A DNA stretch of 64,000 nt from Hallella bergensis DSM 17361. Its GTDB lineage: Bacteria > Bacteroidota > Bacteroidia > Bacteroidales > Bacteroidaceae. A program made the translations under genes and the position numbers. The stretch is taken from contig NZ_GG704781.1 of NCBI RefSeq assembly GCF_000160535.1, forward strand, positions 1,035,158 to 1,099,157. The letters are read 5' to 3'. Below are positions 4,608 to 39,189 of the stretch, piece after piece. The notes beneath the pieces are model-generated. The model did not search any database, was not told the origin of the DNA, and was given only the letters and a program-made list of their open reading frames with translations. Numbering within the stretch: position 1 is the first letter of the stretch; the number at the start of each line of letters is the position of its first letter.

Positions 4608-4790
4608 TTAGTATTCTTCATCCCAAACATTGTGTTGGGGTCTATAGAGTTGTTCTTCGAATAAATCTTCGTTTTCCACTTCAAAGTCATACTTTTTGCT
4701 GTCTGCATGATCCAGGTCTGATCCTATCATAAGGTCTCCGCAATCAGCCTTGATGATTTCCGTATTTGGAATTATATATTGTTTTTTCAT
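4608..4790 (-). CDS. Small acidic protein paired with a secreted cargo (60 aa)
   Basis: I do not recognise a named family. The protein starts MKKQYIIPNTEIIKADCGD, has a central Ser/Asp-rich stretch and ends in a very acidic tail, FEEQLY...NVWDEEY. There is no signal peptide or membrane segment. Translation starts 17 bp after the stop of the 1060-residue secreted protein on the same strand, so the two are almost certainly co-transcribed. A second protein of nearly the same size at 39010-39189 shares the M-x-K-K-x-Y-x-x-P opening, a Gly-Asp about 18 residues in, and a Trp followed by acidic residues at the end. It also adjoins a large secreted protein. Possible roles (chaperone, secretion adaptor, peptide precursor) are speculation. 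Confidence 0.65.
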   Translation of the reverse strand: MKKQYIIPNTEIIKADCGDLMIGSDLDHADSKKYDFEVENEDLFEEQLYRPQHNVWDEEY

Positions 4791-4807: not shown

Positions 4808-7800
4808 TTATTTGACGATAATTTTCTTTCCGTTCACTACATATACACCTGCTGCCAGGGGAACCGTCGCTGTTTCGCCGGCATTCATCTGCAAGCGGTT
4901 CAGGGTCATGCCGTTTATGGCAACGATTTCCACTACCGTGCTCTCGTTGGCTCTGACTTGAAGGGCTCCACGAAGAGCGTTCAGCGTCATGACCCGATCG
5001 CCGGCTTCCACTTCCCTAATGCCGGTAATGCTGTTGTCCTTCTCGCCAAAGCAGACATCGAACGCTGTCATTGTCTTGGCACCGGCTCCGCCGTTAAAGC
5101 TGTAATAAGAGCGGAACGGATAAACATAGAGATATTCATGTTCAGGACGAAGATTCTTGGAATTCAAGAACATATTACGGGCGAAGTAGAAGTTCTTCAG
5201 GTTCTTATTCAGTTTCCTGCCGGAATATGAACCATGGTTGGTGAAGGTGTAGCTTGTGCCGAGAATCTTTCCCGATGCCGTTTCTCCCTCAAACTCATAG
5301 GATGCAGCATCCATCGCACTACCCTTGGTAGCCATGATATCGGAACCATATTGGGTTGCGACGAACGAAACTTCTCCGTCTTCAGGCGCTTGGGTCACCT
5401 CGACCATATAGGGAACATTAGCCGTGGTGCTGCCTTCGGTCAGCGGAGTGAAGTAGGCCTTGCCCCGATAATCCTCCGGCGAATTGTATTCGTCGTCCAG
5501 TTCCAAGCAGTTGCCAGCTGTCATTTGGGCCACTTTGAAAGCACATTTACCGTCTTTGTTGGTATGGATGCCTTGAGCATCGACTGTCAAGGTAAATGGC
5601 AGAACCACTGTGGCGTGAGCCACCTTTCCGTTCTTTGGAACTGTGATCTTACGGGTGTACGTCGCATAGTTCTCTGCCGACACGGTGATCTTGTAGGGTG
5701 CGTAGAACGGTTGCTTGTCGGTGATCACGATATTCTTGCATGCGCGGTAGTCGCCGCTGGCAGTCTTTTGAATATAGTTATCTTCGCAGTAGGTAGTACG
5801 CTCGGGGAAATAGATCAGACAGTTGGGGTTGAGCAAAGCCTTCATCTCGTTGATCTCGTTCTTATTTGGAATGTGGATGGAATAGAGATTGGTGTAGTCG
5901 AGCCAGAGCACTTGTTGCCCTGTGGCACCAACTCCGGCAATTCCTTTCTCTGCGTTTCCATACAGTTCATCTATGAGTGCCTGCTTCATCATCGGTACGG
6001 TGAGATAAGCGTTGCCACTCGGAATTTCCTCTTGGGTTTCTGCATCCAAGGCTTTGAACACACCACCATACATGGGTAGTTCGGCATCCTGTCCGTCTTT
6101 TTCGTAGCAGGTGGCATCGTAGAGCTTGGTCAGATCACACTTGGCGACATAGTCTTTCATGACCAAGGTCAGATGCATCAGATAATAGGCAAAGTAACGG
6201 TGTTCCATGGCCGTGGTGGGCGCTACGTTCCATCGTGTCTCATCGCCGGTGAACAGGTAGCAAGGTTTCGATTCGTTAACTGCAAGTACGATGTTGTCTG
6301 TGAAAGTACCGCCCTGCGAATCATATAATGCATCGGAATAAGGATATTCTTCCAGGGTGGTGGGTGCAGCGCTTGTGTTGGTGTTGCTCAGCTGGTCGAT
6401 GTTGCTGAATCTGAAGGCTTGTTTGCCACAGTGGGCCGTATGGTTCTTATCGCTTTCAAGCTCATTTCCGATAGTTTGATATTGTTTGCCATCCCCAAAA
6501 CTGAGATTATACGGAGACTTCACGAAGAAGTAGCGTGCGTTACCATCGCCGTTGGTGTAGCCGTTATCCCCATACTTGCTATAAAGTCCTTCAAACGTAA
6601 ACCGACATTTCTCCTCACCTCCGCCAAAGAAGTCTCTTGGAACATAGAAGGTGAATGCTCCTCCCGATACCTGGAAGTCGTTGCTGGTGAATTGCTGCAT
6701 CAGGGTGGGACCATTATCGATGAGAGAATGACAGATGATATCCATCGTGTTGATATAGGGGTTTAGACATTCGAGTGTCAACTCGAACGTAACGCGTGCT
6801 CTCGCATTGCCTTCCAATCCCTCAACTGTGAATTTGATGGCATCGTTGTTCAGATTTTCCAACACAACTTCTCCTCTTCCGCCATCGGCAACGTTTACTG
6901 TCTTGTATACGGTGTTCTTATCCGTGCTATAAACCTTTAAGGTATAACCATCATTGCCGATTGAGACCCCAGTGCTGTATTTCAATTTTGCTCCAACAAT
7001 TCTGTATCCCAATGGAATTACCTTTCCGTTTTGCGTTGTTGCAGATGTAGGTGTTTCTACATAATAGGTGTTGTTTCCCAAGATATATTGATTTTGTGAA
7101 GCCCGAATAGAACCCGCACCGGCGGTTTCAGGTAGTTTGCCGTCTGTGACAGCATCTTCCTGATACAAATAGTTCATGGCGGTCAGATCCTTTACATTAT
7201 TGTAGTCGTAGCTATAATAGGTTTTCCCATTTTTCGGATTGGGCTGGATGGGACCCAAATCGAGTCGGCTGGTTGCAAAACTTGAACCCACCATATTCAC
7301 GGGACTTGTAATGGAAGCATTCGGTGCGACCTGTGCATTAAAATCGCCCTCAGCCGTGAAGTAGAGCTCACACGACTTGATGGTGGCGGCATAATAACCG
7401 TCGTTTTTACGATAGAAATAGAAGTATAGATTGTTGCCCATGTCTGTCGCATTTTTACTGGTGCGCCCAATGACATATTCTTTAGTGTCATCTGTTCCGG
7501 GCATCAAGTCCGTTTTTGCCTTCGGGGAACTGTAATTAAAATTACGGTCTGTTTCATACAGCTGTTTGGGGTTGCTTTTAATCTCCATACCGTGGAAAGT
7601 CATGCTGTTTTTGTTGTTCAGCAAAACCATGCGGTAACCGGTAAAGCGATAACCCTTGGGCAATGAGATGTTCAGGCGTGTTGTAACTGAGCTTCCTCCA
7701 CAAATAACATAACGGTTGGGCGTTTCATCCAAAATAATGTTACCTGCAGGCTCTTTTAACATACCACCGTTGGTCAGATCAGCATAATCTGAAACGACCA

Positions 7801-7990
7801 GAGACAGGGGCAGTTGGTTGTGTCGCCACAGTGAACTCCAACCTCGCTCATAACCCACCTCATTTTCTCCGGTGAGTCCGGCAACCAACTTGCCCGATTG
7901 CGGACTGATGGTTACATTCTGGGCAACCACTCCCGTTACGAATAATTGACATATCAGAATGCCAATCATGTTTAATAAAATTCTCCTCAT
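4808..7990 (-). CDS. Large secreted protein with a type IX secretion-like C-terminal tail (1060 aa)
   Basis: The N-terminus is a clear signal peptide (MRRILLNMIGILICQLFVTG, cleavage near VVAQN). The first 450 residues look like beta-rich repeats of unknown type. Residues about 700-900 contain NPNCLIYFPERTT and ITDKQPFYAPYKITV, motifs I associate with the C-terminal regions of large Bacteroidetes surface proteins. The last 75 residues end AAGVYVVNGKKIIVK, which fits a type A T9SS sorting domain (G-V-Y-x-[VL]...K-[IV]-x-[VI]). The protein is therefore expected to cross the outer membrane and be anchored or released. No catalytic motif is recognised, so binding or adhesion is the likeliest role. 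It lies between the hybrid sensor/AraC regulator upstream and the small acidic protein downstream, and the upstream DNA carries direct repeats suited to AraC-type binding. Confidence 0.75.
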   Translation of the reverse strand: MRRILLNMIGILICQLFVTGVVAQNVTISPQSGKLVAGLTGENEVGYERGWSSLWRHNQLPLSLVVSDYADLTNGGMLKEPAGNIILDETPNRYVICGGSSVTTRLNISLPKGYRFTGYRMVLLNNKNSMTFHGMEIKSNPKQLYETDRNFNYSSPKAKTDLMPGTDDTKEYVIGRTSKNATDMGNNLYFYFYRKNDGYYAATIKSCELYFTAEGDFNAQVAPNASITSPVNMVGSSFATSRLDLGPIQPNPKNGKTYYSYDYNNVKDLTAMNYLYQEDAVTDGKLPETAGAGSIRASQNQYILGNNTYYVETPTSATTQNGKVIPLGYRIVGAKLKYSTGVSIGNDGYTLKVYSTDKNTVYKTVNVADGGRGEVVLENLNNDAIKFTVEGLEGNARARVTFELTLECLNPYINTMDIICHSLIDNGPTLMQQFTSNDFQVSGGAFTFYVPRDFFGGGEEKCRFTFEGLYSKYGDNGYTNGDGNARYFFVKSPYNLSFGDGKQYQTIGNELESDKNHTAHCGKQAFRFSNIDQLSNTNTSAAPTTLEEYPYSDALYDSQGGTFTDNIVLAVNESKPCYLFTGDETRWNVAPTTAMEHRYFAYYLMHLTLVMKDYVAKCDLTKLYDATCYEKDGQDAELPMYGGVFKALDAETQEEIPSGNAYLTVPMMKQALIDELYGNAEKGIAGVGATGQQVLWLDYTNLYSIHIPNKNEINEMKALLNPNCLIYFPERTTYCEDNYIQKTASGDYRACKNIVITDKQPFYAPYKITVSAENYATYTRKITVPKNGKVAHATVVLPFTLTVDAQGIHTNKDGKCAFKVAQMTAGNCLELDDEYNSPEDYRGKAYFTPLTEGSTTANVPYMVEVTQAPEDGEVSFVATQYGSDIMATKGSAMDAASYEFEGETASGKILGTSYTFTNHGSYSGRKLNKNLKNFYFARNMFLNSKNLRPEHEYLYVYPFRSYYSFNGGAGAKTMTAFDVCFGEKDNSITGIREVEAGDRVMTLNALRGALQVRANESTVVEIVAINGMTLNRLQMNAGETATVPLAAGVYVVNGKKIIVK

Positions 7991-8292: not shown

Positions 8293-11172
8293 TTATAGGG
8301 GTTGTCTGCGATGTTGTGAGGGTGTGATGCCATACAATTTTTTGAATGCGCGTGAGAAGTAGGACACATCCTCGAAGCCGCATTTCATGGCTATATCCCC
8401 GATAGAGGAGTTCTGTTCGGACTTCAACAAGCGCTTGGCCTTCTCCATTCTTATTTTCTGAATATAAACCGATGTGTTATCTCCTGTAATGGCATAGATT
8501 TTCGTTCTCAGTTGCTTGGAAGTCATGCACAGGTCGGAGGCAATACTTTCGGCATCGGTAGTGCGGTCGGCCATGTGAGCATAAACCACATCTATAAATT
8601 TGTGGAGGAAGGCTTGATTTACGGTTGAGAGGTCGGACATGTTATTAATGTCGGTCTGTGATGACAGGGCGTATTTTCGAGACAAGTTCTCATTTCGCTC
8701 TATCAGGTTTTTGATTCTCACCTTCAGCTCGTCTGCACTGAAAGGTTTTTCTAAGTAAGCATCTGCTCCGGCCTCCAGTCCGCTCAACTTGTCTGCATCG
8801 TTGCAGCGGGCGGTAATCATGATGACAGGAATATGGTTCAGCACATCGGACGATTTGATATCCCGGCACAGCGCCAACCCGTCTTTGACTGGCATCATCA
8901 TGTCGGTCAGGATAATATCCGGCATGAGGTCTTTTGCCTTGTCCAGACCCTCAGCCCCATCGTGGGCAAAGAACAGGTTGTAGTCGCGGTTGAGCTGCAT
9001 GCCGATATAATGGGCCACATCCGTATTGTCCTCGACGATCAAAACCGAGGCACGTTCTTCATTCACCTCTGTGTCGACGTTTTCCTCGACCGGCTCTGTA
9101 CAAGGCAGAGCTGGGTTGTGCTCTTCCGGAGCATTGGTGGGCGATACCTGCTTCACTGTTTTTAATGGCAACCTGACGGTAAAGGTAGAACCTTTGCCGA
9201 CCTCGCTTTCTACGGTGAGGGTTCCGTCCATCATGTCCACCAATTGTTTGATCATGGCCAGCCCTACCCCATTGCCAACCTCAGCGGAGGAACGACCTGC
9301 CTGATAAAACAAATCGAAGATATACGGCAAGTCTTCCGCCGGTATTCCTTTGCCATTGTCGACAACCTGTAATTGAAAGAAGTTGTGTTCAACCTGGGTG
9401 ATAACTTTGATGCGGCCATTTTTCGGTGTGAACTTAATGGCATTGGATATCAGATTTCGCACGACCTTGATGACATAGTTAGGTACGAAATCCATCATCA
9501 GCGTTGTCTGATCCGGCATATACATGAGTTCTACATGCTTGGCTTTGGCCAACGCCTGATGACTTTCCGTTATCATCCGGATGTAGGCGATGATGTCTTG
9601 ATGGTGATAGTCGAGTTGGACGGTACCTGATTTCAGTTTGGCAATCTCAAGCAGTTGGTTAATCAGATCGAGCAGTCCGCTGCCTTGCCTGTGCATGAGT
9701 TCTCCAGCTTTTTTGAGTTCGTCTCGGTCGACGAGGCTACCGTCGGCTATCTGCTTGCTGAAACCAAGGATAATGGTTAATGGTGTGCGGAATTCATGAG
9801 TAAGGTTGGTATAGAAACTATCTTTAATTCGCTCTATCTGAACCATCATCTTGTGGTTTTTCGAGCGTATCCGTATGACATACCATAAGAAGCCAATAAC
9901 TGCGATGCAGAACAGGAGAATGCAGATACTACTGATCAGCACGAGGGTCCCGAAGGTCTTTTCCTGTTTCATCTTCTGTCTGACGGCCATCATTTCGCGC
10001 TGTTTGTTCTTACGTTCGTATTCCAGGCGTAAATTCTGAATACGTCGCGTTTTGGTCTCGCCCATCAGACTGTCCTTATACATCTGGCTCTTGACATAGC
10101 TTTCCAACGCCCGGCGACTGTCTCCCTGCTTTTGGCTGAGCATGTATTCTGCGTGATAGAGTCTTGTCAGATATTCAAACGACCCCAGTTGTTTCACAAC
10201 TGGTTTGGCTTCGGCAATATATTGTCCGGCTTGGGCATAATTGTCTTGGGAAATGTAAAAATCGATTAAGGCGAATACGGCATTAAGCCAATGCCAACTG
10301 TCGTCAATGTTTTTCAAGATCTGATAGGCCTTCTCATATCGCCGGACGGCCTGGTCCCATGCCTGGTCTTTTTCTTCCAGCTCTCCCAAGTCAAGCTGGC
10401 ATAAAGCCTCTCCGAGTTCAGAACCAGCCTCGCGGTTCAGCTTCAGAGATTTTTTAAAATACAGTCGTGCGGAATCTATCTTGTTCTCTTTTTCCAGCAA
10501 TGAGCCTAAATTGGCATAGTTAATGGCTTGCCCCAATTTGCTGCCCAACTGCTCTTCTCCCTTTAAAGCCAGTCGGAAAGCACTGTCGGCCACTTCTGTG
10601 TTGCCCAAAGTGAGGTGCACATTGCCGAGTCCGTTTAATGAAATAACCCTGTTCTTACGGGCAACAAAGCTGGAGTCACCCTGGTACTGATCACTGAGCA
10701 TCAGTGCTTTATAATGGTAGGTAGAGGCTTCGTCCAAGGCACCCACGCGCCTGAAATTTGTTCCGATGTTGTTCAGAGCTATGACCAACTCGACGGTATC
10801 TTTCAGTTCCACCGCCAGATTGTACTCTTCCCTATGTGCTTGTATCGCCTCGTCAAATTGGGTTGAATTACGATATGCCAGACCCAAATAGCGGTAGCCT
10901 ATCATCATACCCAGTTTGTTGTCTTGCAGCTTGTATTGTTGGAATCTTTTCTCCCGGTCACTGATAGCTTCTAATGATTTCATCTCATTTTCTATCTTAT
11001 CTTTCTGCGCTTGTGTGTAGGAGACTTTCGGCGCTTTCCGACAGGAGACAATGATGACAGAAAACAGCAACAAGAAAGATACAACTCGCCATTTTAACCT
11101 CTCCGAGATTATGTTTTTGTTAGAAAAAGAGGTCGTGGGTGATTTCATGTCATGATCTGTTGCTTTCATCAT
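8293..11172 (-). CDS. Hybrid two-component system: TPR sensor, histidine kinase, receiver and AraC-type regulator in one protein
   Basis: The protein has 959 residues. After a hydrophobic segment ending in a lipobox-like IIVSC (Cys44) come TPR-like helical repeats (about 85-370), a coiled segment, a membrane span (about 409-433), and HisKA with phospho-acceptor His459 in LTHEFRTPL. The ATPase domain follows (N-box NLISNAIKF about 573-581, DNGKGIP 605-611, GNGVGLAM 633-640). A receiver domain comes next with phospho-acceptor Asp757 in ILTDMMMPVKDG and Lys809. The end is an AraC-type domain (about 855-955, ending ...KKLYGITPSQHRR). It should sense a periplasmic signal and bind DNA while membrane-held. 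Unlike most Bacteroides hybrid regulators it has TPRs instead of a beta-propeller sensor. An alternative start is Met9. The next gene on the strand, the 1060-residue secreted protein, is the likely target. Confidence 0.9.
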   Translation of the reverse strand: MMKATDHDMKSPTTSFSNKNIISERLKWRVVSFLLLFSVIIVSCRKAPKVSYTQAQKDKIENEMKSLEAISDREKRFQQYKLQDNKLGMMIGYRYLGLAYRNSTQFDEAIQAHREEYNLAVELKDTVELVIALNNIGTNFRRVGALDEASTYHYKALMLSDQYQGDSSFVARKNRVISLNGLGNVHLTLGNTEVADSAFRLALKGEEQLGSKLGQAINYANLGSLLEKENKIDSARLYFKKSLKLNREAGSELGEALCQLDLGELEEKDQAWDQAVRRYEKAYQILKNIDDSWHWLNAVFALIDFYISQDNYAQAGQYIAEAKPVVKQLGSFEYLTRLYHAEYMLSQKQGDSRRALESYVKSQMYKDSLMGETKTRRIQNLRLEYERKNKQREMMAVRQKMKQEKTFGTLVLISSICILLFCIAVIGFLWYVIRIRSKNHKMMVQIERIKDSFYTNLTHEFRTPLTIILGFSKQIADGSLVDRDELKKAGELMHRQGSGLLDLINQLLEIAKLKSGTVQLDYHHQDIIAYIRMITESHQALAKAKHVELMYMPDQTTLMMDFVPNYVIKVVRNLISNAIKFTPKNGRIKVITQVEHNFFQLQVVDNGKGIPAEDLPYIFDLFYQAGRSSAEVGNGVGLAMIKQLVDMMDGTLTVESEVGKGSTFTVRLPLKTVKQVSPTNAPEEHNPALPCTEPVEENVDTEVNEERASVLIVEDNTDVAHYIGMQLNRDYNLFFAHDGAEGLDKAKDLMPDIILTDMMMPVKDGLALCRDIKSSDVLNHIPVIMITARCNDADKLSGLEAGADAYLEKPFSADELKVRIKNLIERNENLSRKYALSSQTDINNMSDLSTVNQAFLHKFIDVVYAHMADRTTDAESIASDLCMTSKQLRTKIYAITGDNTSVYIQKIRMEKAKRLLKSEQNSSIGDIAMKCGFEDVSYFSRAFKKLYGITPSQHRRQPL

Positions 11173-32931: not shown

Positions 32932-35900
32932 TTAGTCGATGACAATCTTAGAGGTCTGAACGTTGGTGCCGTCAGTGGCCTTGATGAGGTAAACACCTGC
33001 GGGAACACGTCCCTTCAGCTTCTCTGCGTCGAGCGGCAGGCTAAAGGTGCCCATCTTGATGCCAGAGAGATCGTAAACCTCAGCTTGACCCTTGGTCAGC
33101 GTGGTGGTCAATCCCTCGATACCGGTTACAGAACCAAGAATCTTAGCGTAATCCGTCTCAGGAGTGTCCACGAATACGAAGCGGTTTGCCTGTACGCCAT
33201 CCACCTCTCCGGTGAAGAAGTACTTGGCCTTGTTGTCAACAAACGGAGTAACCGTCTCGTTCTTCAAGTCAACCAACTTCAGATTCTGATAGTCCAGACT
33301 CCATGCGTTCAGCTCCATGTTATAGGTGTCACCCTTGGTGGTTTCAACACTGAACGTGCTTCCTATCAACGAAGGCAAACTGGAAATCTGTACATTCTTA
33401 CCGTCAGAGGTTGTAGCAAATACAGAAGGTTCGCCCATGTTCAGCTTCTCACTCTCCAATTGCGAGTCGTAGGCTGGTGTGGCGTCCTCTTCCTGGTATG
33501 TCCAGAACTTGTCAACCACCTTGCCATTATCCATTGCCACCATGATACTACCACGGTTAAAGTCATCTTCCATGACAAATGACTTGGCGCGTAGTGGTGC
33601 AGCCTCAGACTTCAATCCCTTGTAAGGAATGGTGAGTGTACCTGTATTCGTACTGTACACAGGGTTGTTGTATTTCACCATGAACCCTTGCATAGGTGCC
33701 AGTGTACTGGTAACACCATTCTCACCAGCCTTGTCAATGTTCACAGCTTCATAGCCACCCTTTACTTTTACAGACTGTCCATTCTGGTTCTTCCATTCAT
33801 CCCAGCTACCTGTGGTGTAGATGTAAACCGTGTTGTCCATCTTAACACCATCTTCACCAGATGCTAACTTAATGCTCTTGATGTCCACGCCAGCCATGAA
33901 CGAGTTACCAACGATGTTGTAACCCAGTCCGTAACGCTTGGCATTATCATCTGCAGCAGTTGATTTAGTAACGATGTCTGCTTGTCGTGTCAGGGTGATT
34001 TCCTGATTACAGAGGTTCAGCTCACCTTGTATCTGACGAACACCATTACTGCCATCCAATACAGGAGCAATTTCGTAGCCCTTGAAGGCGGTCATGTCGT
34101 CTGTAGGCATCACATCGATCCACTTCTGATAGTAGTGATTGGGATCGTTCTTCTTCTCATCGTAGAGACGAACCTTCACACCCTTGAACACAGGACTCTT
34201 CTTTACTTCCTTCACAGGAATACCAATGTACTGCCAGTCAAACTCAGCCCATATATCCTTTCCATGGTCCGGTGAGGTGGCGTCCTTATCGTCCGTTGTC
34301 TTGTTGTCCGGGCGATACTTGCCTAATGGCTTGAACTCTACAGAGGCAAACACTTTAGTGTTGCATGCATTTTCATTGTTCAAGATGAACGTACCCACCT
34401 TCTTGCCGTCGGTAGATGTCTTCATCACAAGTTTGTCCTTGTCAGCGTCTGTGCCGAAGCCTTCCACGCTCTTCACGGTCAAGCCACCATCAGCGGGAAC
34501 AACTACAGCTGGGTGACCAGGTGTCTTTTCAGTAGCACCTTCCACAAACTTCTTGTCCGGCGCGTTATTCACCAACTTGTTTGCAGAGATAAACTTACCA
34601 GCAGGCAAGTGCAGGTCGCGCTCTGCCTCCTTCTTCTCACCCTTTATGTCGGGCTGGTTATTGGCAAAGATGATGTCCTGTCCATCCTTAGGAACATCTT
34701 TGGTCCAGTTCTCTTTGTTATTGAAGTCGTTGTCCACGCCACCAATCCAATAGTTATAGCCGCAGGCATTCACTTCGGGGTCGTAAGCAGAACCAGCACC
34801 TTGTCCACCCTTGGCAGCCTTTGGTACACCGTTTTCATCTACTTCACCCTTGATGACACCGTCCTCAACCATGTCCTCAGTGATGTCTTTGTTATCACCT
34901 TCAACTGCATCAGGACAGCCGTCGCCGTCACTGTCGGCATCAAAGAAGTTAGGAATACCGTCCATATCATCATCGCATGGCAGCATAATCGTTACCACAG
35001 TGTTCACCATACCCGTTTGGTCAGGAGACTGTGTAAACGCAAAGTACTTCTTGCCGGGTTCAGTGTTCAAGTACGACAATGCTACATCATTAGTAAGATT
35101 TACGTCCTTGTTATTTATCAGCACTTTCTTGGTGCCTTGATTCTCATAGACGGTGTAACGGTCATCGTCCATTTTGGTATACAACGCGGTCTGCGACAAC
35201 GCATGCTCATTGGTGAGAACGTTGATACCAAACTGGTTGTCCTGGTGGAACGATGAAACTGGTGTGCTTTGCATCAACACGTACGGATGCATGGTTCCTC
35301 CAATTTCCCAAGTGGTTACAGTTCTGTCGTTATTGGTTCTAAAGCGATCTCTATCCACAGAATAGTTTTGAACCGTTACGACTACTCTACCCGTGCCAGC
35401 TTCGTATCCAAACTTATCGGAGAGGTCTACAGTATAAGCCTCGTCACCCGTTGCTGCTTTTGCACCAATCACAGTAGGCAACAAGGTAAGCACCCTACCA
35501 GTCTTAGGATTAGGATTGAGATAGTTCTCATCCTTCACAATATTAGCGAAGAGTTGCTGAGTCTTCACATCGTCTCTATAACGTATCCACTTGCTTTCAC
35601 CTAAGCCGCTTTTGTCAACCGTCGGTGTGAGGTTGGATTCTGCAATGTCTGCACACTCCACAGTATTCAATATACCGTCATCGTCCCAGTCAAGATCACC
35701 AGGAGCCACAACGCATGGCTTGAAGAATATCTGCGCACCGGTGCTCTGTGCGTACTGGCGTGTCTCGTCATAGGCACCCACGCAATCGTATGTATACTCA
35801 GTCTTGTCGCCATCGGTCATGCTCTTCACGATGATGGTGTAGAGATAACCCTCTTCAACCTTGTTAGATGGGAAGAGTTTGTCGCCCTTGATGATAACAT

Positions 35901-38900
35901 TGTCTGGGAATTCCTCGACCGTTACCTTCTTGGTGCCGTTCTGTACATAGCCGGTGATATTTCCGTCTTTATCGTAAACAGGTTCCAAGTTGGGAATTTC
36001 TTTTTCAATAGGAACTCTTTCTTTTAGCGTTTCCGCTACGGCGCCTTCTACAATTCTTTCGGTGCTGTGTCCTTTCTGTTTCCATACATCGTAGGTAAAG
36101 GTGAACGGACCCTCTCCACCAATACTTTGGAACTTAGCCCAATATTCTGTATTGCCGGCACAGTAGGATGCGTACGTTCTGCTCACGCCTGGCTTGTCAC
36201 TGTCGTTGGTGATGATGTCGGCATGTGGTTTCAGCACGTCAACCTCTGGACGAAGTTCAATTGGCTTACAGTCTACCTTCACACCTTGCCCTTTGTCGCC
36301 TATCTCAGCGTCGGTGGGGGAGGTGTAACCCTGATCAGCCGCTACGTTTGGCTCGGTAGGAACCTTAGGGTCGGTAGCGTAACCTTCATTGTCACCCTTA
36401 TCATTCAGCCTTAAATTGGTAGTATAGGAATTATAGACTAATTGCAACTTGGTGTTGGATATCGTGATAGGATTAAAGCCCTTCTTACCTGAGGGAACAG
36501 CGATGTCTGCACCCCAAACAGCAGCACTCAGCTTTTTGCTGGTACTCATTCCTTGGTTGCCATAGAACACACAGCCATCCAACTTGTCGATGACATCTTT
36601 TGCAAATACTCCACCAAGACCACTACGTGTATAAACATAAATGGCACCACCGCTTCCGTCTGCTCCATAATCACCATCAGCAATGTTATTCACAAACTTA
36701 GCATTGACAATCTCACAATTTCTTTCCTGTGCTATATAAAGGTGTAAAGCACCTCCTTGACCATTGTTGTTACCTTGCTTTCCACCATTCAGCTCAAGTG
36801 TGGCTTGGTTTTGGTAGAATACATCATTCGTAGACCAGAAACCACTTGACCAGTCGGAACCTGAGTCGTCCTTGAGACGAATGGCACCACCTTCTACAGC
36901 TTTGTTGCCATAATATTTATTGTTGGCTGACTTCACATAAGCGTTATTAAAACTGTAGATGGCTCCACCCATACCATTGGCAGTGTTGCCATTGAAAATA
37001 CTATTCTTCACATCGGTACCAATGCAAGCATTGTCTACAAAAATGGCACCACCGCCAGACCATCCAGAGGCTGAGTTTTCCTTGAAGATACAATTGTTGA
37101 TAAATACCGGGAAGTTAGCGCCAACCTGTGCGATGGCACCACCGTTTTCAGCTTTATTGCTTTCGAACAGACAGTTGGTGAAATTAAATTTACCATCTTT
37201 TACACTGTAACCAGAGCCAGCAAGGAATACTGCACCACCTTGCTTTGTACTTGTGTTGCTCACAAACTTACAGTTGGTGAAGTCACCATAGCCGCTCTCC
37301 ACATTCACGGCACCACCGTTGTCGCTACCAACGGAACTTGTGGTATGATTGTGGATGAACATACAGTTCTTCACGTCGAACTTGCCCTGCTGTATACCGA
37401 TTGACAAGGCATTGGCTTGTGCATCGCAACTGTTGTTCTCGAAATAACAGCCTTCCACCAACAGGCTTTTTGCATTGTTCGCTATACGGAAGGCACCGCC
37501 GTATTTAGAGCCACTGTTGTTACAGAACACAGTGTTGGTAACCTTGACATTGCCGTCTTGGTTTGCGATATAGAGTGCACCACCTTGATTCTTCGATTTA
37601 TTGCCTTTGAAGTTACAGTTGTCTATTGTTACATCCACCGGAGCTGATGCATCTTCATCTTGAATCTGAAGCGCACCACCAGCATTGGTCGCAATATTGC
37701 CCTCGAACTCATTGTTGATGAAGGTAATTGTGCGGCGACCAGTTCCTGTTGGGATGTAGGCAGCTTTTCCTCCGCTCTGAACAGTAACAGCACCACCGGC
37801 GTCACCTGATATACATTTGTGGAACTGGTTGTTCTTGAACACTACCTCATGACATGACTGAACTCTGAAAGCTCCACCAATTCCTGATGTGGTATTGCGG
37901 AAGATAGAATTGGTGACACTTACTTTCTTAAAGCTTTGCAAAGAGATGGTTGTGATTTGCTGTCCAGCCGTACCACCAAGGTTGCGGTTCACCTGCACAT
38001 GGTCGAGATTGACATAGGAATTGTCTTCTCCATCGGATGGTTTGTAGTTTCTCGCACCAATCACCGCATATTTCTGGTCTGGTCCCAAGTGGTTGATGTC
38101 ATGAAACGTAACATATTTCATGTCAATCTGTATGTTCGTCGGCTTATATATAGTATTCTCGTTGAACACCAAGAAGCCACCACCTGTTGCACCTACGCGA
38201 TCGCCTTGTAACACCTCTACACGTTCTATCTTAATCTTGGGATTTTTCATATTACCGAAGAAATAAATAGCTCCGCACAGAGACGACTTGTAATATTTAA
38301 TGGAACAGTCGATCATCTCCAAATAAGGATTGTCATACCCATTGTTATCAAAGGTAATCAATGCGCCATCACCAGAGCCACCCACAAAGTTTTTAGAGTC
38401 GAACGTAATACCGTGCATAATCAACCCCTGATTGTGGTTGTTGGTTCGGAATACAGATGTTTTGATCACATCTTTCGATACAAATTTAGTCACATGCCGC
38501 TGAGGGTTGCTGTTACATGTATCTTGAGGCAGCGTTTGTGAGCCTGGCGTGGGATATCCACCCATGAGCCACAACGTCTGTCCTTCTTTTGACAAGACGT
38601 AAAAGCCTTTGTTTCTTTTGTTGCCATCGGAATACTTAATCGCATCTGTCTCACTCACGTCATACTCACCCTCTGCCAAATAAATTTTGACCTGTGTGTT
38701 TGCATTGTTCTCAGCTGTATTCAATGCTTGCTTGAGGGTTTTGTATGCATCGTTCCACGAAGAGCCATTACGCTAGTCGTTACCTGTCTTGGCAGACACG
38801 AAAAGCTCCAACGGCGGCTCTGTTTTCTGCTGTGCTTGTGCCCCAAGTGCCATGAAGCACGCGAGCAGCATCGTCAGCATATACCTTGCTGGTAATAAAT

Positions 38901-38907
38901 GTTTCAT
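32932..38907 (-). pseudogene. Giant beta-helix T9SS cargo interrupted by one in-frame TAG
   Basis: The signal peptide MKHLLPARYMLTMLLACFMA opens at 38907. After GAQAQQKTEPPLELFVSAKTG and ND the frame meets TAG at 38773-38775, then continues in the same frame as RNGSSWNDAYKTLKQALNTA for 1944 more codons. The join matches the usual G-N-D...G-S-S-W-x-x-A-Y-x-T-L start of Bacteroidetes beta-helix proteins, so the gene was one unit. The first ~750 residues after the stop are right-handed beta-helix repeats (GGA[IL]/FxNN). Two Asp-rich calcium-type segments follow (WDDDGILN near 1010, DSDGDGCPDAVEGD near 1260). The tail GVYLIKATDGTNVQTSKIVI fits a T9SS sorting domain. It could be an adhesin or glycan binder. 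Either the gene is inactivated, the base is a sequence error, or the stop is read through. Confidence 0.8.
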
Positions 38908-39009: not shown

Positions 39010-39189
39010 TTATCTATCTCCCCAAGGAGAATCAGAATATTCAAAGTCCTCAAAATCATCAAATTCTCCACGCTTGGCACCTAAGGAGGGATCGTTGTTT
39101 GGATCATAAGGACTTGTAGCTGCTCCTGGGTCGCCACCATTTGCTGCCAATAACATCATGCTTGGACTTACATACGTTTTTTTTGCCAT
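39010..39189 (-). CDS. Small acidic protein paired with the giant T9SS cargo (59 aa)
   Basis: The frame begins MAKKTYVSPSMMLLAANGGD and ends with a tail rich in Asp, Glu and Phe (FDDFEDFEYSDSPWGDR). There is no signal peptide. Like the 60-residue protein at 4608-4790 it has a K-K-x-Y-x-x-P opening, Gly-Asp at about residues 19-20 and a terminal Trp followed by acidic residues. The rest is not alignable by eye. It lies 102 bp upstream of the cargo's signal peptide on the same strand, in the same likely transcript. I do not recognise a family. Because it is only 59 codons, the strongest evidence that it is real is the resemblance to the other small protein and the shared genomic position. Confidence 0.6.
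   Translation of the reverse strand: MAKKTYVSPSMMLLAANGGDPGAATSPYDPNNDPSLGAKRGEFDDFEDFEYSDSPWGDR

Follow-up and report, generated by a model that had tools for sequence, protein, structure and literature searches.

Precursor-like small proteins beside exported-protein genes in the Prevotella group point to a probable LPP-like RiPP system of Bacteroidota

Sequence-based computation on the window (the whole stretch of 64,000 nucleotides that was analysed) and on related genomes revealed a family of small proteins with a conserved leader and a conserved serine, a kinase-peptidase-RRE operon that co-occurs with this family and is in places linked to it, adjacency of the small genes to genes encoding exported proteins, and covariation between the C-terminal part of the small proteins and their neighbours. 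We consider it probable that these elements belong to an LPP-like RiPP system of Bacteroidota, in which dispersed leader-core precursors are situated beside exported-protein genes and the core acts together with the neighbouring product. More tentatively, we propose a genome-wide peptide-partner system in which one operon would mature many precursors into phosphopeptides, each dedicated to the adjacent secreted or surface protein, so that the RiPP pathway would serve surface-protein assembly, anchoring, or regulation and not the production of a natural product.

Table 1. Features of the window and the enzyme operon situated elsewhere in the same genome (G000).
Feature	Position	Strand	Basis or composition
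Precursor-like small protein, 60 aa, ATG start	4608..4790	-	ORF, family alignments, selection analysis
Putative core of the 60-aa protein, residues 22-60	within 4608..4790	-	
Putative phosphorylation site, Ser24 codon (Tyr+19) in ...LMIGS	4719..4721	-	Family serine conservation; phosphorylation proposed by inference
Putative YxxP leader, M1-M21 (Tyr5, Pro8)	4728..4790	-	Sequence and family statistics
First cargo, 1060 aa, signal-peptide-like N-terminus, T9SS-type C-terminal tail ...AGVYVVNGKKIIVK	4808..7990	-	
Sorting-tail region of the first cargo, last 75 aa	4811..5035	-	Tail alignment
Hybrid two-component regulator (TPR, HisKA, HATPase, response regulator, AraC HTH)	8293..11172	-	Domain composition
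Second cargo, large protein of surface type, rich in repeats; sorting tail with a weak match (E 0.005)	32932..38907	-	
Second precursor-like small protein, 59 aa, MAKKTYVSP..., Ser26 at Tyr+20	39010..39189	-	
Enzyme operon	G000:C30 ~294-296 kb (L065: 11149-9414)	-	Kinase 299 aa, peptidase 169 aa, RRE 95 aa

The 60-residue protein is encoded by an intact reading frame that begins 17 bp past the stop codon of the first cargo, as the sequence-only reading had described, and the traits named there were all seen again: the K-K-x-Y-x-x-P opening (the N-terminus reads MKKQYIIP), Gly18-Asp19, an acidic tail with a tryptophan, and the lack of an export signal, with no hydrophobic N-terminus seen. The division into leader and core in Table 1 was drawn by analogy with the LPP (linear polyphosphorylated peptide) RiPPs. 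For the second pair, the shared pattern and the contact with a cargo held, while the arrangement proved to be reversed, with the small gene situated 102 bp upstream of its cargo's ATG at 38907 and not downstream of the cargo. The geometry of these pairs varies, and the pairs themselves are real.

The tail of the first cargo matched the tail profile with an E value of 1.2e-9, the same sequence being a row of that profile, and was not recognised by TIGR04183 (type A sorting domain), which matched 2 of 40 cargo tails at E<=0.01. The cargo tails form an alignable set of their own, with 28 matches to the tail profile in the genome of the window, where the PorU sortase was also identified (NF033707, E 2e-270). 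In a Pfam scan of ten cargos, matches were obtained in only three (CARDB, DUF6359, and Fn3_assoc/CHB_HEX_C_1), so a function common to all cargos is not evident. The frame of the second cargo has a signal-peptide-like start at its ATG and an in-frame TAG at codon 45 (38773-38775, minus strand); this stop could be a nonsense change, an assembly error, or a sign of decay, and the listed ORF starts downstream of it.

A single-sequence search of its own genome with the 60-residue protein clearly retrieved the query alone (next match E 1.06), and profiles were therefore used. When the protein served as sole query against 100 genomes of the genus (the Prevotella group; named kinase relatives are largely Prevotellaceae among the best 80 of 531), 36 genomes gave matches at E<=1, few of them strong, and most of these loci contained a small ORF of like length and opening directly 3' of a large ORF with a ...GLYIVNGKKVVIK-like tail. 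With a 28-member profile, 8 members were detected in the genome of the window; a later profile gave 10 matches there at E<=1, including 9 at E<=0.01, and matched 92 of the 100 genus genomes at E<=0.01, with up to 24 copies per genome.

The genus set comprised 107 copies from 44 genomes (27 best-per-genome loci and 80 places, among the matches listed), which for the motif statistics became 106 after a 134-aa ORF (L198) was dropped, near-duplicates being kept. The N-terminal pattern consists of KKxYxxP, a hydrophobic stretch, and then LMAGS or LLAGS. Among the matches listed, YxxP was present in 103 of the 106 members and absent from 3. Within those 103, again among the matches listed, a serine was found at Tyr+18 to +21 in 95, mostly at +19 or +20 (background windows, 28%), and was lacking there in 8; the putative cores were net acidic in all 103, and a tryptophan was located within the last 20 residues in 94. 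Close pairs of members exhibited dN/dS values of 0.07-0.42 where computable, and pooled independent pairs had a pS of 0.43 and a pN of 0.15; the small proteins are a fast-evolving protein-coding family under purifying selection. Pfam and NCBIfam scans of 50 members returned scattered weak matches, the most frequent being DUF6929 (four members, best E 0.0091), and the scanned members are without a convincing family in either collection.

The comparison with other short genes that the sequence-only reading had proposed for profile matches showed enrichment beside T9SS-tail genes. Among the matches listed, 85 of the 107 copies start within 500 bp after a same-strand gene with a T9SS-type tail (two overlap it; median gap of the 85, 22 bp), against 1 of 117 small intergenic ORFs situated downstream of a tail gene in 20 arbitrarily placed 20-kb stretches from six genus genomes (Fisher p 1e-39), a comparison in which T9SS-type neighbours may be over-represented because the profile that yielded the 107 copies, all of them high-scoring, was seeded from the window protein, and in which 3 of the 20 control stretches came from G010, a genome without a PorU match. 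The tail pattern was fitted by 6 of 279 genes in the control stretches, and on inspection two of the six were doubtful. Of the 22 listed copies that missed, six can by eye also be assigned such a tail (L197, L236, L245, L273, L300, L306). Ten of the 22 have an exported-type gene just downstream; with the 85, these bring to 95 of the 107 listed copies those with one or the other kind of neighbour.

The neighbours are not restricted to proteins with sorting tails. Of the nine members at E<=0.01 in the genome of the window, three are encoded downstream of a tail gene and one, the second window protein, upstream of such a gene. A fifth member lies upstream of a large frame that bears a tail, from which it is separated by a stretch of N. 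Lipoprotein-like genes begin shortly downstream of three members, and the remaining one lies downstream of an ORF that shares its C-terminus with a lipoprotein-like protein of G010. A tail gene also adjoins a tenth match, which is weak (E 0.044) and for which no ATG start was seen. Lipoprotein-like genes also adjoin family copies in other genomes, and G010, which is nearly complete and gave no PorU match, bears the kinase and nine members, both of the two examined adjoining lipoprotein-like genes. The partner therefore need not be a T9SS cargo. Conversely, all eight family-free genus genomes keep the PorU sortase, so that the T9SS itself, around which the pairing had been framed, is not the defining link.

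In the genome of the window, the enzyme operon occurs as a single copy unlinked to the window's small genes. Its last gene encodes the only PqqD/RRE match of this genome at E<=0.1, a discrete PqqD-like protein that matched PF05402 above its cut-off. The RRE profile matches TfuB1 (4.7e-8) and TbiB1 (7.4e-7), which we take to be lasso RREs. A Pfam scan of the P-loop kinase gave no match; sequence comparison revealed the P-loop together with other invariant positions. For structure modelling the relatives in L312 were used, the kinase there being 80% identical. The kinase model (pLDDT 95) matched PEPCK and, lower down, HPr kinase 1knx (E 5.5e-6, TM 0.33) in Foldseek; the HPr kinase appeared in the Foldseek list only, all 50 rows of the VIA-align comparison being PEPCKs. 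On this model, the kinase has a predicted PEPCK/HPr kinase fold and is HprK-like. The peptidase carries invariant GxSMxP, HR, and GDGN motifs, and Pfam S24 fell just below its cut-off; against its model (pLDDT 86), LexA-type S24 domains ranked first, with a best E of 1.3e-3 that is short of E 0.001. It is classified as a putative S24/SipW-like peptidase of the Ser/His type, the likeness to SipW being suggested by the motifs. Neither the kinase nor the peptidase profile found a relative of solved structure by sequence. In 101 of 109 kinase loci the three genes lie on one strand in the order kinase-peptidase-RRE, the 109 loci having been obtained by joining sets of 29 and 80 in which some genomes are possibly counted twice. 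Within 19.5 kb around the operon of the window's genome, neither an NTP transferase nor an ABC transporter of the cluster type was found.

The presence of PqqD was rejected as a co-occurrence test, being too common (145 of 199 genomes of the order), and for this reason the kinase was used. Among the 199 genomes, the kinase (E<1e-15, with a gap in the values from 9e-18 to 8e-11, some matches below 1e-15 being partial, and a profile built partly from precursor-bearing genomes) was present in 29 and the small-protein family (E<0.01) in 16, after removal of the kinase-negative G292, whose match (E 0.0096) lay inside a 619-aa frame. Every one of the 16 also has the kinase (hypergeometric 4e-16; counted by genus code, 14 within 25 of 141, 6e-13). 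Because part of the later profile came from enzyme clusters, the comparison was repeated with a genus-only profile: all eight family-positive genomes other than the window's own (E<0.01) have the kinase (7 genus codes within 24 of 140, p 2e-6), G141 (E 0.085, 18-aa frame) lying above the cut with this profile. Weak family matches (0.01<E<=1) were present in 8 of 13 kinase-positive versus 13 of 170 kinase-negative genomes; G198, without the kinase and with the strongest of these 13 matches, in a 57-aa frame (E 0.013), just misses the cut and is a near counterexample. Thirteen of the 29 kinase-positive genomes of the order gave no family match at E<0.01. Within the genus, the family was detected in 84 of 84 kinase-positive genomes, and the kinase was absent from all eight family-free genomes. 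Eight of the 16 kinase-negative genomes still have members, and seven of these eight are at most 88% complete; G032, kinase-negative and 97% complete, has one member. When placed on a PorU tree that covers 40 of the 100 genus genomes, the co-loss amounts to about four events, with three of four independent contrasts in agreement and none opposed (p 0.25). With so few events, the genus result is supportive and not decisive on its own.

Physical linkage was also observed. A precursor lies within 1 kb of the kinase or the RRE gene in the distant genomes G171, G113, G211, G286, and G278, and with weak E values in G120 and G123. The cluster of G171 reads RRE-precursor-kinase-peptidase-ABC, its RRE frame being preceded at a distance of 4 bp by the gene for a secreted-type protein of 1600 aa that has a sorting-like tail; that of G113 reads precursor-kinase-peptidase-RRE-NTP_transf_5-ABC. 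In G211 the order is RRE-precursor-kinase, and in G286 the precursor is situated between the peptidase and the RRE. A genus genome, G013, bears precursor, NTP_transf_5, kinase, peptidase, RRE, and ABC transporter in a row (L208). Pfam identified NTP_transf_5 in L103, L104, L106, and L208 and the ABC transporter in L102, L104, and L106, the others being assigned by similarity. Such linkage is the exception: in the stretches examined, a precursor match was found in 4 of the 109 kinase loci and none in 105. By eye, the precursor-bearing cluster L103 (G287:C2:85000-104000) is located amid glycosyltransferase and polysaccharide-export-like genes, surroundings also described for Bacillota LPP clusters in PMC13381572.

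According to PMC13381572, LPP RiPPs are restricted to Bacillota, their leader YxxPxVLxHQxIxFETxxS is bound by the RRE, core Ser3 is the residue that the kinase phosphorylates, and cleavage after T-1 is carried out by a SipW-like peptidase. With cleavage after T-1 and the serine as core residue 3, the modified serine would stand at Tyr+18 if the T and S of the motif are those meant. The two systems have in common a YxxP leader, a conserved N-terminus with a variable C-terminus, a serine at nearly the same distance from the tyrosine, a discrete RRE, and an HprK-like kinase. The putative Ser/His peptidase with signal-peptidase-type motifs may be a further likeness, as may NTP_transf_5 and an ABC transporter, here in complete clusters only. 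In contrast to the LPP systems described there, the host is a member of the Bacteroidota, the precursors are mostly unlinked to the enzymes and mostly located beside an exported-protein gene, the cores are acidic, mostly with a C-terminal tryptophan, and matched to cargo families, and many operons are without an NTP transferase and a transporter nearby. The full LPP consensus YxxPxVLxHQxIxFETxxS was not matched, the agreement being limited to the tyrosine, the proline, the hydrophobic pattern, and a serine mostly at +19/+20 and not +18, and the precursors of the window's genome are not in the enzyme cluster. On these two grounds the system is filed as LPP-like, not as LPP.

Two further groups of peptides were compared. 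Paeninodin-type lasso peptides share an RRE-bound aromatic-xxP leader, an HprK-like kinase, and an NTP transferase, with WxxP reported there and YxxP here (PMC13381572). A lasso peptide reading was rejected, as no macrolactam cyclase or B2 protease was seen by eye beside the window genome's operon (ORF list, five proteins scanned). Bacteroidales GG-leader peptides with C39 (PCAT) transporters come from the same order and have a short leader ending in a small-residue motif; their clusters mostly pair a precursor with a PCAT, whereas here the conserved partners are the RRE, the kinase, and the S24-type peptidase (PMC10352776). Among the titles and opening lines of abstracts searched, which covered few subscription papers, none described the pairing of small protein and cargo or an LPP-like system in Prevotella, and the main texts of RRE-Finder (PMC7470986) and PMC12710340 contain none of the terms 'Bacteroid', 'Prevotella', or 'kinase'.

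By analogy with LPP biochemistry, from which binding of YxxP by the RRE, phosphorylation of the serine, and cleavage about two residues before it are all drawn, the shared KKxYxxP... leader would dock on the discrete PqqD-like RRE, which would present the peptide to the HprK-like kinase for phosphorylation of the conserved serine of the LMAGS motif. The S24/SipW-like Ser/His peptidase may then cut about two residues before this serine and free an acidic core of approximately 35-40 aa, usually with a tryptophan near its end. The enzymes would be provided in trans from a single locus to dispersed precursors, encoded mostly beside a T9SS-type cargo and otherwise often beside a lipoprotein. The mature core would act with its neighbour; it may be exported and serve as a ligand or subunit, or it may accompany the neighbour in the cytoplasm until export.

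The relation between precursor and neighbour was evaluated in 84 of the 85 precursor-cargo pairs (one cargo was too short), with cargo bodies minus the tail compared by BLASTP and permutations that take no account of shared ancestry. In pairs from different genomes, core similarity was 0.194 for homologous versus 0.144 for other cargos (z about 10, 0/2000 permutations), while leader similarity did not track cargo homology (z -0.7). The core effect persisted when near-identical precursors were removed (z 9.7) and when the largest cargo cluster (37 of 84) was removed (core z 5.2, 0/2000; leader z 0.06). Since the core tracks cargo homology and the leader does not, the leader seems to be shared throughout the family and the core to belong to the individual cargo. 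Together with the adjacency, this covariation suggests that the mature peptide acts with the product of the neighbouring gene. It also bears on the strongest rival, that the scattered small genes encode precursors of RiPPs secreted as antimicrobials or signals, with an adjacency that reflects no more than convenient co-expression or shared mobile modules. The RiPP-like enzymes and leader, the variable cores in as many as 24 copies per genome, and the ABC transporter of the complete clusters would all fit such peptides; free peptides, however, need no match to the family of the neighbouring cargo, and we regard this explanation as rather unlikely. Core motif classes such as YGGVDE and NDHADSK (e.g., L190, L194, L232, L240; L176, L185, L192) appear to follow cargo families.

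Somewhat less probable still is a role in the cytoplasm as a chaperone or adaptor dedicated to T9SS preproteins, in which the protein would work unprocessed and its resemblance to a RiPP leader would be incidental. The missing export signal, the position directly downstream of a tail-bearing gene in most of the listed copies, and a C-terminal part that tracks the cargo family are what such a protein would exhibit. However, the presence of the family follows the kinase operon and not the T9SS, as the PorU-bearing genomes without the family and the reverse case of G010 indicate, members adjoin lipoprotein-like genes elsewhere, some are situated inside RRE/kinase/peptidase clusters, and the leader is shared while the core varies with the cargo. 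The earlier suggestion of a dedicated partner of secreted proteins thus gains ground beyond the two original pairs, while the chaperone or adaptor role offered with it loses to a processed peptide, which is favoured by the YxxP leader, the conserved serine, and the co-occurrence and cluster linkage with the RRE, kinase, and peptidase. A regulatory short ORF acting by translational coupling or mRNA protection, its peptide functionless, would suit the very short gaps and is nevertheless highly improbable given the purifying selection on the protein, the conserved Tyr, Pro, Ser, and Trp, members both upstream and downstream of the partner, and the co-occurrence with a peptide-modification operon.

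Read in this way, as precursors of RiPP type served by a defined set of enzymes, many small proteins that lacked a characterisation become parts of a pathway open to experiment, and LPP-type chemistry would no longer be confined to Bacillota but would include Bacteroidota. Should the association of core and cargo be borne out, peptide modification in the Prevotella group would be directly connected to protein secretion and surface display, and these bacteria would have a new way to equip secreted proteins with a processed and, by analogy, probably phosphorylated peptide.

Some further observations concern the surroundings of these genes. The hybrid two-component regulator is the next large same-strand gene upstream of the first cargo, and it possibly controls the first cargo-peptide pair. 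The second precursor and its nearly 2000-residue cargo are situated, by eye, amid ribosomal protein, EF-G, and RNA polymerase-like genes (~11441-50146), which look like an odd site for a surface-protein module. At positions 382-1232 of the window, fragments resembling a broken insertion-sequence transposase were seen by eye. Finally, the kinase gene is present as a tandem pair in some genomes of the genus (G097:C39, G081:C75, G095:C71, G074:C98), which suggests two phosphorylation steps or two precursor classes.
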